DNA from: a bacterium HR40
GTDB taxonomy: Bacteria > Pseudomonadota > Alphaproteobacteria > Geminicoccales > Geminicoccaceae
NCBI GenBank assembly: GCA_002898275.1
Contig: BEIQ01000002.1
Coordinates: 186,001 to 250,000 of the forward strand
Reading direction: 5' to 3'
DNA length: 64,000 bases
Below, in pieces: positions 26,055 to 30,382 of the stretch (position 1 is the first letter of the stretch; each line of letters begins with the position of its first letter). Under the pieces are notes generated by a model. The model was not told the DNA's origin and did not search any database. It saw only the letters and a program-made list of their open reading frames with translations. A program made the position numbers and the translations under genes.

Positions 26055-27937
26055 GCCCGTCCGGCCTCCACCACCGTCGCCTCCTGCACCCCTCGTGCCC
26101 GCACCTGTGCTTCCGGCTCCCGCCTGAGATCGGCGGTCAATCGGGCCAGCTGTTCCTCGTCGAGGGTTTCGGTCTCGAGCAACCGCCGGGCACAACGTTC
26201 GAGCACGTCGCGGTTGCGCGCGAGGATATCGCAAGCGCGCGCGAAACACTGATCGACGATGCGTCGCACCGCGAGATCGATTTCCCGCGCCGTATCCTCG
26301 CTATAGCGTCGCTCCGTGAAGCTCTGGCCCGGCGCCGGTTGAAGGAACGGGCTGCGGTCGGTCTCCCAAGCGACATAGCCGAGCTCTTCGACCATGCCAT
26401 AGCGGGTCACCAGGCTGCGGGCGATGTCGGTCGCCCGCACCAGATCGTCCGCCGCACCTGTCGACAGGTGACCGAAAACCAACCTCTCCGCCGCGCGCCC
26501 CCCGAGCACCACGGTGATGCGGTCGAGCAGCTCCTCGCGCGTCATGAGATAGCGGTCCTCGGTCGGCCGCTGGATGGTGTAGCCGAGCGCCCCCACGCCA
26601 CGCGGCACGATGGACACTTTGTGCACCGTCTCGGTGCCGGGGAGGGCGAGCGCCACCAGTGCGTGCCCCATCTCGTGAAAGGCCACGATCTCGCGCTCGC
26701 GCGGATTGAGCACGCGGTTTTTCTTCTCGAGGCCGGCGACGATGCGCTCGAGAGCGCGCGTGAAATCCTCCATACCCACCGCCTCCGCTCGGCGGCGGGT
26801 GGCCAGCAGCGCCGCTTCGTTGACGAGATTGGCGAGATCGGCGCCGGAAAAGCCGGTGGTCATGGCCGCGATCTTGCCGAGATCGACATCCGGCGACAGG
26901 CGGATCCGCCGCACATGGACCCGCAGGATCGCCTCCCGCCCCCGCCGGTCCGGCCGGTCCACCAGCACCTGGCGGTCGAAGCGACCCGCTCGCAAGAGCG
27001 CCGGATCGAGAATCTCCGGCCGGTTGGTGGCGGCGATGATCACCACCCCTTCGCTGGGATCGAACCCGTCCATCTCGGAGAGCAGCTGGTTCAGCGTCTG
27101 CTCCCGCTCGTCATGGCCACCCACCGCCGGGAAAGGCGACCGCGCCCGGCCCAGGGCGTCGAGCTCGTCGATGAAAATGATGGCGGGAGCATGCCGGCGC
27201 GCTTGCTCGAACAGGTCGCGCACCCGAGCTGCCCCTACCCCGACAAAGAGCTCGACGAACTCCGAGCCGTTGATGGAGAAAAAGGGGACGCCCGCCTCGC
27301 CGGCGACCGCCCGAGCGAGCAAGGTCTTGCCCGTGCCCGGCGGTCCGACGAGCAACACCCCTTTGGGAATGCGCGCGCCAAGCCGACCCCAGCCCTTGGG
27401 ATCCTTGAGGAACTCCACGATCTCCTGGAGCTCCTGCTTGGCCTCGTCCACACCGGCAACGTCCTCGAAGGTGACCCCTGTGTTCTTCTCCATATAGACC
27501 TTGGCGCGGGAGCGGCCGATGGACATCAGTCCGCCCATTCCCTGCCGCTCGACGAAGCGTCGGAAGAAAAATGCCCAAATAGCGAAGAACAATACGATGG
27601 GAACGACCCAGGAAAGGATGTCCCTTATAAAATTGTTCTCGATAGCACCAGTGAACGTCACATCGTACTTTTCGAGCTCGCGCGCGATGACAGGGTCGAC
27701 ACGCGGCGTGACAAAGCGAACTTTGCCGTCGACCGGCTCCCGAAAGTAGCCGGTGATGGTATCTTCGCCAACGATCACCCGTTCGACCTTCCCGCTCTGG
27801 AGATATCGCTCGAAGTCGCTATAGGGAATGACCTCGGTCGTGTGTGCCGTGTGCCACCAATCCTGAATGATCAACAACAGCAGGAAGGCAGCGATGACGT
27901 ACCAGAGGTGGAACTGGGCGCGCTTGTCGTTCAACAT
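26051..27937 (-). CDS. ftsH: ATP-dependent zinc metalloprotease FtsH
   Basis: FtsH is a membrane-anchored AAA protease that degrades misfolded and regulatory membrane or cytosolic proteins. The 628-residue protein has two membrane helices (about 11-25 and 107-124) around a periplasmic domain, Walker A GPPGTGKT at 198-205, Walker [12 protein letters not shown], the SRH region [20 protein letters not shown], and the zinc motif HEMGH near residue 419 (most orthologues have HEAGH). The Met variant suggests it may be a second, specialised paralogue. Start ATG at 27937. Confidence 0.96.
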
Positions 27938-28744
27938 GACTCTCCGCGGAGCGTCGTCCGCTCTCCGGCCGCCGTCCCCGTGGCCCCGCCGCTCGATGTA
28001 GGAACCGCGACCGCAGCTGTCGAGGCCGCGCGCGGCCTGCCCGCTCGCGCCGGCCAGCGCCCTCGAGCCTCGCCGGCATGCGAGCCGCGGAGCCGACCGC
28101 CTCTCTCGAGGCGGCACGTCCCCTCGCCCGAGCGCCACGCCCATGGGGGTCCAGCGAGAGGACGCGGATGGCCCCGCTCCGTGTCCCCGATCACTCACGC
28201 CGGTCGATCGGACCGGCGAGGGCACGCCGTGTCCGTCCTGCGGAAAGCCAGACGCGGCGCAGACCGTCCGCCTCGGCTGCCGTCCATTCGGCGCGCCTCC
28301 GGCACCGATCGCGCCTCGTCGGGTTTGCCGGCATGCCGGGAACCGGACACCTAGGAGAACGGACGCTGGGGCAACGGTGGCTCTCCCCTCGCGCCGTCGG
28401 CGCCCCGCTCGCGCGGCGACGACGGCAGGCGGCGAGGCGCGCCGCGGTGCCACTTGGTTCGAGCCTGGCGCGCGAGACCGGCAACCGTCGGCCGGCGCAT
28501 AGCGGTCGCCAAGGCGGGCAGCGCAGCGACTGCCTGGTCGCGCTCCGGCAGCCGAGACGGAGTCGCCCCGGGCATTGGCGATCGCTCGCAGAGCGCAGCA
28601 TCGCACCTCGCGCCTCGGGCGAAGGCCGAGCGAGCCGAACCGGCACGAGGGACACCCGTCGATCCGCTGCCCGGATCCCTCCGATCGTCCGGCTGGACGC
28701 CTCGCATCGTGGCGCCCCGTCCGCGCCGCTCGCCGCCCGTGCCG
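27938..28744. other. gene-free block between ftsH and cobW
   Basis: These 807 bases hold no gene I can support. Several overlapping frames are open on both strands (for example 28078-28818 plus and 28191-28856 minus), but their translations are Arg/Pro/Ala-rich with no conserved motif and look like chance in GC-rich DNA. Only a possible ftsH promoter is seen at its left end. A decayed or deleted gene is possible. Confidence 0.6.
27995..28023 (-). promoter_or_regulatory. candidate promoter of ftsH
   Basis: On the minus strand TCGACA (28018-28023) and TACATC (27995-28000) have a 17-base spacer, about 60 bases before the ftsH ATG. The -35 box is good, the -10 box weak. Confidence 0.35.
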
Positions 28745-29788
28745 TCAGTCGACGCCCGAGAAGGGGATGCCGAGCCGAGTGCGACAGGGATCGGCCGCGA
28801 GACCGGCGCTGCCGATGACGACGAGACGGGAACGGCGCTCCTCCCCGGCCCGCCATGGCCGGTCGAAATAGACCTCGACCCGGTCGCCCACCGCCTGCAC
28901 CACGAGCCGCATGGGCCGGCCGGCGACAGCGACGAAGCCTTTGACGCGATAGATCGGCAGTTCGCGCGCGAGTGCCCGCAGGGCCTCCACCAACGCCGTC
29001 GGGTCGGCGATCTCGCCGGCCTCGAGCACCAGGCTCGTGAACTCGTCGTGATCGTGCTCGGCTGCGCGATCGGTGTGCGAGGGACGACTTTCCAGATCCT
29101 CTTCCGCGGCTGCCGCCACGCCCAGCAGAATCGCCGGATCGAGGCGCCCGAAGCGTGCCCGCGCCACTCGCACGCCCGGCCGCAGGTGGGGAGCGATCGC
29201 CGCTTCGGCACGTTCCAGCCCGGCTGCGTCCACCCGGTCGGTCTTGTTGAGCACCACGAGATCGGCGCAGGCGATCTGTTCGGCGAAGAGCTCCTCGAGC
29301 GGGCTGTCGTGATCGAGCGCCGGGTCGGCGGCACGGGCCCGCTCGACGGCTGCGGGATCGGGGGCGAAGAGCCCGCGCGCCGTGGCCTCGGCATCGATCA
29401 CCGCGACCACGCCATCGACGGTGGCGCGGGTGCGCACTTCCGGCCAGGCGAAGGCCTTGACGAGCGGCTTCGGCAGGGCGAGGCCGGAGGTCTCGACCAG
29501 GATGTGATCGGGCGGTGTCGCGCGGTCGAGCAGGCGACGCATGGTCGGCAGGAAATCGTCCGCGACCGTGCAGCAGATGCAGCCGTTTGCCAGCTCGACC
29601 AGGTCCTCTTCACGGCAGCCGGCGAGCCCGCAGCCGAGCAGCAGCTCGCGATCGATGCCGACCTCGCCGAACTCGTTGACGACGAGGGCGAGCCGACGAC
29701 CGTCTGGATGTTCGAGCAGGTGCCGCACCAAGGTCGTCTTGCCAGCGCCGAGGAAACCGGTGATCACCGTGACCGGAACGCGTGCCAT
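28745..29788 (-). CDS. cobW: CobW-type metal-binding GTPase
   Basis: The 347-residue protein is a G3E-family GTPase with Walker A in [11 protein letters not shown] (10-20), the metal-binding GCICC at 69-73, the guanine motif NKTD and the C-terminal CobW domain. The His/Asp-rich [12 protein letters not shown] stretch is a further metal-binding candidate. CobW proteins act as metal chaperones; in aerobic cobalamin synthesis CobW is thought to supply cobalt to the CobNST chelatase. Control by the upstream cobalamin riboswitch supports a cobalamin role. Unusually no cobN follows. Confidence 0.93.
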
Positions 29789-29801
29789 GGGGCGGTCTCC
29801 C

Positions 29802-30110
29802 TCAATGCGGGCGGCGGTGGCACCGCACGCGACGCGCGAGGCGCTCGCGCGGCCACAACGCGACCTCGCGCAAGAGGTCGCGCAGCTCGTAGTCTGCGCC
29901 TTTGCGCTGTTGCCCATTCCAGCCGAGAATGCGGCAGGCGGCGAGCGCTGGATCGAGCCCGGCCGGAAGCCGCAGGAGCCAGCACAGCAAGAGCTCGCGG
30001 ACGTTCGCATCCGGTCGGTCGGCCAGGAGCGCCGCCCGCATCAAGCCTCCTGGATCGCAGGCCTCGAGGTCCGGGGTAACGGCGGACGCCAAGGTCGAGG
30101 GGATCGGCAT
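29802..30110 (-). CDS. unknown 102-residue protein in the cobalamin-regulated unit
   Basis: The small protein ([18 protein letters not shown]...) begins at the ATG at 30110; an ATG at 30131 would add seven residues. It is predicted helical with [19 protein letters not shown] near the end and a short basic tail; it has two isolated Cys in the middle and no signal, membrane helix or known motif. It is the first gene after the cobalamin riboswitch and ends 13 bases before cobW, so it is very likely co-regulated and connected to cobalt or cobalamin use. I do not recognise a named family. Confidence 0.75.
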
Positions 30111-30160
30111 CGACGGTTCCTCCGGGGGCACCCCGCCCCGACAGGTGGCGCGACGGATTG

Positions 30161-30322
30161 GCGGCAGGTCTCCTGGCTCGCGGGTCGCCGCCCCGATCCG
30201 CCTTCCCGGGTCGCCCCAGTGGCCCGATGGATCGGGACTCGCCGCCTACAGTTGCGGGGGCAGCGCCGGCTTTGGCCCGAAGCCGCACCGGCTTCCCTCT
30301 TCGTCCCTCGCGGGAACCGCCA
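30161..30322 (-). promoter_or_regulatory. cobalamin riboswitch
   Basis: Read on the minus strand this segment has all hallmark elements: the upstream GGTTCCCGCGAGGGA region, GGGAAGCCGGTG, CCCGCAACTGT (30248-30258), GCCACTG (30217-30223), GGGAAGG, and the B12 box AGCCAGGAGACCTGCC (30163-30178). Adenosyl- or methylcobalamin binding normally represses the genes downstream. It ends 51 bases before the unknown 102-residue protein gene, so it controls that gene and cobW. No separate terminator helix is obvious, which suggests control at translation start. Confidence 0.95.
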
Positions 30323-30382
30323 TCCGCGCCCTGCTTAGCCCAGTCGGCCCATCGTCGCAACGGGGGCGCCCTGCTCGCGCCG

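Follow-up and report, generated by a model that had tools for sequence, protein, structure and literature searches.

We found that a 102-amino-acid protein encoded between a cobalamin riboswitch and cobW in the window (the whole 64,000-nucleotide stretch of DNA analyzed here) is a member of a conserved and unnamed family of alphaproteobacterial proteins, and that the genes of this family are almost always located behind cobalamin riboswitches, mostly as the first gene and apparently as the only target. In the window, the riboswitch, the small protein and CobW constitute one unit, in which two genes are predicted to be driven by the switch. Across the family, the small gene is tied to B12 synthesis by its occurrence and untied from cobW by its position. 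The small protein is one of the few cobalamin-riboswitch targets in several B12-making alphaproteobacterial lineages, which suggests that for the cell it belongs to the core response to B12 shortage. It therefore offers a defined and easily tested entry point for finding a component still missing from B12 supply or from the switch towards B12-independent metabolism, and bears on how CobW hands cobalt to the chelatase.

Organization of the locus

The unit is encoded on the minus strand. Its riboswitch aptamer (RF00174, positions 30157-30323) was detected by cmscan at 106.9 bits (E = 8.8e-26, positions 14-178 of the 189-position model), far above the gathering score of 31.5 bits. The small gene (29802-30110) starts with an ATG 46 nt beyond the riboswitch, and a GGAGG ribosome-binding site (30119-30123) lies 8 nt before this codon. 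The stop codon of the small gene is separated by 13 nt from the ATG of cobW (28745-29788, 347 amino acids plus the stop codon; 28748-29788 without it). Directly 3' of the small-gene stop codon is a GGGAG sequence (29797-29801), which, judged by its sequence and position, is likely the ribosome-binding site of cobW, and it is possible that the two genes are translationally coupled via this site.

The cobW product, the GTPase that acts as cobalt chaperone in the aerobic B12 pathway, matched the equivalog model TIGR02475 with 502.2 bits against a cut-off of 332.1, as well as PF02492 and PF07683. The P-loop, the CxCC motif and the His-rich stretch are all present, and this is the sole true cobW in the genome. 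The folding of the leader RNA gave a z-score of -0.29, which is uninformative for the expression platform. The block between cobW and the next open reading frame (27930-28745) has an unusually high G+C content of 75.8%, compared with 68.8% for the window, and a search for repeats in these 0.8 kb showed nothing notable.

The host genome (2.89 Mb in 8 contigs, estimated to be 100% complete) also carries a full-length cobN (C1:774290, 1603 bits) on another contig, with cobU directly upstream, and the scan of the host genome gave no RF00174 match near this cobU-cobN pair. Three cobalamin riboswitches were found in total, and the other two precede the genes for a HupE-like transporter and a PCuAC-domain protein. 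The latter, a copper chaperone-like gene, is located directly behind its riboswitch (L016:5936-6633; C2:41935 in the host genome). The sequence-only reading had proposed a cobalamin riboswitch and a CobW without CobN. The first two assignments were borne out by the Rfam covariance model and by TIGR02475, respectively; the absence of cobN is correct for the locus and incorrect for the genome.

A conserved family of small proteins behind cobalamin riboswitches

The small protein matched no Pfam or NCBIfam model even at E-values up to 1, the cobalt-transporter models in both collections included, and 35 of its relatives produced only scattered single-member matches to these collections (E of 0.046 or more), none of which was credible. 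The family profile found no match among PDB sequences at E-values up to 10, a search of a plasmid collection gave no match, and we found no description of the small gene in open-access papers.

With the single sequence as the query, homologues were identified in 12 of 60 relatives, the host genome included, with a riboswitch right upstream at nine loci; this tally contains two weak matches (L014 and L015) that were excluded from the family members. The profile search added three further members in the window's own family. The order-level search covered 31 genomes, all of one family, of which 13 are carriers. In a class-wide sample of 385 genomes, members appeared in three more families (f155, f38 and f106), and the search was extended within f38 and f106. 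In this way, the profile searches yielded 36 members from four alphaproteobacterial families, which we examined.

A cobalamin riboswitch was located upstream of the family gene in 35 of these 36 members (12 of 13 in the window's family, 2 of 2 in f155, 9 of 9 in f38 and 12 of 12 in f106). The sole member without a detectable riboswitch occurs in a genome that has cobW (G008). Outside the order, the small gene lies directly behind the riboswitch in 22 of 23 members and behind a riboswitch-driven GbcAB-like pair in the remaining one. Given that each carrier genome contains two to eight cobalamin riboswitches, the linkage is far beyond chance. Some carriers have no more than two or three, one of which serves the small gene; G780, G781, G771 and G789 have two each.

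We also calculated dN/dS for twelve close pairs of homologues from the relatives and obtained values of 0.08-0.50, a range that indicates purifying selection and hence an open reading frame that is translated and kept. Judged by these sequence comparisons, the small open reading frame is a real gene. Two arrangements recur around genes of the family. At L082, L157 and L159, a manganese (yybP-ykoY) riboswitch is found approximately 50-100 nt behind a stand-alone small gene, and in six genomes of one genus (L081, L083-L085, L142 and L145) the small-gene riboswitch is divergent from a serC leader RNA (RF00517).

Proteins of approximately 90-120 amino acids from other families are matched by the profile as well. 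Those of the large family f23 (L120-L139), which by its gene context is probably Rhodobacteraceae, are encoded directly behind a glnE-like gene, and no cobalamin riboswitch was found in any of the 20 loci scanned. The riboswitch-free relatives of approximately 90 amino acids (Group B) share D-P, the invariant Trp and an Arg-rich tail with the riboswitch-linked family by profile, but differ from it in their RRGGR-like tail and in having no cobalamin riboswitch at the 20 loci scanned. In a tree of riboswitch-linked and riboswitch-free relatives, the two labels clustered; with most of the deep branches open, the tree is compatible with a single origin of the riboswitch link as well as with several. 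Because riboswitch-free relatives occur in other families, the biochemical role of the small protein need not be B12-specific.

Position and occurrence relative to cobW

In the window's order, the small gene precedes and adjoins cobW in 11 of 13 members. The pair is kept in six genera, and cobN is not alongside wherever the downstream flank is long enough to see. In G018 and G024, the small gene follows a riboswitch and cobW lies elsewhere; in G018 cobW is part of an intact cobU-cobW-cobN cluster, away from the solitary small gene. Not one of the 23 members outside the order adjoins cobW, and in the neighbourhoods read in f155, f38 and f106 the next genes are unrelated or opposite in direction. 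In addition, riboswitch-like cores often occur upstream in a set of 80 named cobW neighbourhoods, and the small gene is found in one of these, from the window's family, a figure that measures adjacency to cobW only.

By occurrence, cobW is encoded by 23 of the 24 carriers tested, a count uncorrected for relatedness, and it is therefore probable that the carriers synthesize B12 through the aerobic pathway. Within the family of the window, cobW is present in each of the 13 carriers, and the eight genomes without a true cobW all lack the small gene (again uncorrected for relatedness). The sequence-only reading had suggested asking whether the small protein travels with CobW and cobalamin riboswitches, and it does so with riboswitches (35 of 36) and with genomes that encode cobW (23 of the 24 tested). 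Among the outcomes that would speak against it, it had also named a known Cob protein and a protein with neither homologues nor a cobalamin link; neither was found, as no curated model matches and 35 of the 36 members are riboswitch-linked.

Other targets of cobalamin riboswitches in the carriers

The targets of supply and uptake that we read behind cobalamin riboswitches in the carriers are CobU-CobW-CobN, CobG, CbtA/CbtB, BtuB, a BtuF-like protein, CbiM and HupE. B12-independent substitutes, namely MetE, NrdA and a GbcA-like oxygenase, are also encoded behind such riboswitches. The identities of HupE, CobU, MetE and NrdA were confirmed by models, and those of CobW, CobN, CobG, CbtA/CbtB, BtuB, the BtuF-like protein and CbiM were assigned by eye. 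The GbcA-like protein scored 512 bits, where the curated cut-off is 670. A cobalamin riboswitch precedes a GbcAB-like pair, resembling glycine-betaine monooxygenase, at L205 (G406), L210 (G285) and L296 (G786), and this pair may provide a route around cobalamin-dependent betaine demethylation that needs no B12.

Features of the small protein

The protein had been described from the sequence as helical and of no placed family, and both parts of this description held. An AF2 model built from 35 sequences is helical throughout (mean pLDDT 82.8, pTM 0.71). The models made on 13 and on 35 sequences were compared with solved structures by Foldseek and VIA-align, and the best matches (E of 2.5 by Foldseek; Z of 4.2 to a designed helical repeat by VIA-align) were not convincing. 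Invariant or nearly invariant positions in the alignment are a Trp, an LP turn, the motif D-P-A-x-A-A and Leu positions in the third region. The body is acidic (mean charge -2.7) and the last 20 residues form a basic tail (mean +3.9), with 29 of 35 sequences at +2 or more; two close-family members (L026 and L056) are missing this tail. We also looked for conserved Cys and His residues, and no well-filled column of the alignment contains more than 20% of either. The helical model, the lack of a convincing structural match and the lack of such columns make neither a metal chaperone with Cys/His ligands nor a known enzyme fold likely, and these features would fit an adaptor or a regulator.

A possible role in the response to B12 limitation

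Its size and charge, the regulon in which it is found and the absence of any signature of a catalytic or metal site lead us to propose, tentatively, that the small protein acts in the B12-limitation response as a non-enzymatic adaptor or regulator, induced through the riboswitch at B12 starvation; we would place this proposal just short of an even chance. It has previously been reported that low adenosylcobalamin leaves a cobalamin riboswitch open, so that the gene is translated (PMC2258182). By this logic, plentiful adenosylcobalamin is predicted to shut off the unit, and scarcity would allow both proteins to be made. The small protein may then bind a protein (or RNA) via its helical core, with the Trp and D-P-A-x-A-A, and its basic tail, and it would help the cell to save B12 or to replenish it. 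In the window's order, where the small gene is joined to cobW, B12 supply and the small-protein response would rise together, and in other lineages the small protein would be made from its own transcript. CobW loads cobalt for CobNST (PMC10206600), and the supply step raised together with the small protein would be the one in which CobW-CobNST load cobalt into the corrin ring.

The small protein could instead tune a B12-dependent enzyme or its B12-independent substitute, that is, act in isozyme switching when B12 is scarce. In carriers, MetE, NrdA and the GbcA-like oxygenase are encoded behind the same kind of switch, and in the f106 genome G786 a family-like gene (L166:1414-1680) comes third in a GbcAB-like unit behind a riboswitch. 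However, the protein encoded there is a weak match (E = 1.8e-4), and in most genomes the small gene is not beside such enzymes. We consider this role unlikely.

The sequence-only reading had suggested a new partner of CobW in cobalt delivery. As a dedicated partner of CobW or of the CobNST chelatase, the small protein could, for example, promote cobalt hand-over or GTP hydrolysis. This idea draws on the 11 of 13 members of the order in which the small gene and cobW are neighbours and on the nearly constant presence of cobW in carriers. In addition, cobalt transfer in vitro was not observed in a study of CobW and CobNST, whose authors proposed that a GTPase-activating protein is missing (PMC10206600). 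However, the same study reported that engineered E. coli with CobW makes the corrin (PMC10206600), and many cobW genomes are without the family (the one in 80 above, which concerns adjacency only). The complete lack of adjacency outside the order and the separate cobW of G018 and G024 also stand against it, and such stand-alone small genes argue against an obligate CobW role. We also compared the His-rich stretch of CobW between carriers and non-carriers, considering a degenerate stretch as a sign of compensation; there was no difference, and this candidate was rejected. The lack of adjacency outside the order and the lack of a conserved Cys/His column weaken the proposed partnership; it is unproven and not general, and we regard it as rather unlikely. 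The small protein is not an obligate CobW partner, given 11 of 13 adjoining members inside the order and 0 of 23 outside. A narrower version, in which it would be a clade-specific CobW activator made at B12 shortage, such as the missing GTPase-activating factor proposed for the transfer from CobW to CobNST, appears very unlikely.

A leader peptide or a spurious open reading frame with no function as a protein might be suspected, since the frame is short, matches no family in the databases and immediately follows an RNA switch, but this is contradicted by the selection test, with conservation at the protein level over four families and in-frame indels, as well as by the gene's own ribosome-binding site and by homologues without any riboswitch, and we give it hardly any credence. 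The suggestion that a larger cob operon has lost cobN and is degenerating, with the unit as its remnant, started from the separation of cobW and cobN, which are adjacent in most genomes (PMC2770081), and it is scarcely tenable, being contradicted by the intact cobU-cobN on another contig, the intact cobW and the small gene-cobW pair conserved in several genera, without cobN where the flank is readable.

Comparison with known systems

Among proteobacterial cobW genes, 54 of 65 orthologues have been reported in B12-regulated clusters, mostly adjacent to cobN (PMC2770081). The locus shares its riboswitch class, CobW subgroup and control logic with the known riboswitch-controlled CobW units. It differs from them in that its first gene encodes a 102-amino-acid protein instead of cobU, cbtAB or cobN-linked genes, and in that cobN lies on another contig, where no riboswitch was found nearby. 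The genes for the cobalt transporter CbtA/CbtB are likewise small and first behind a cobalamin riboswitch, and are sometimes located before cobW; however, unlike CbtA/CbtB, the small protein matches no cobalt-transporter model. The isozymes encoded by metE and nrdA, which occur in the same genomes, are likewise riboswitch-controlled and made when B12 is scarce, whereas the small protein is far smaller than isozymes of the MetE/NrdA type and resembles none of them.
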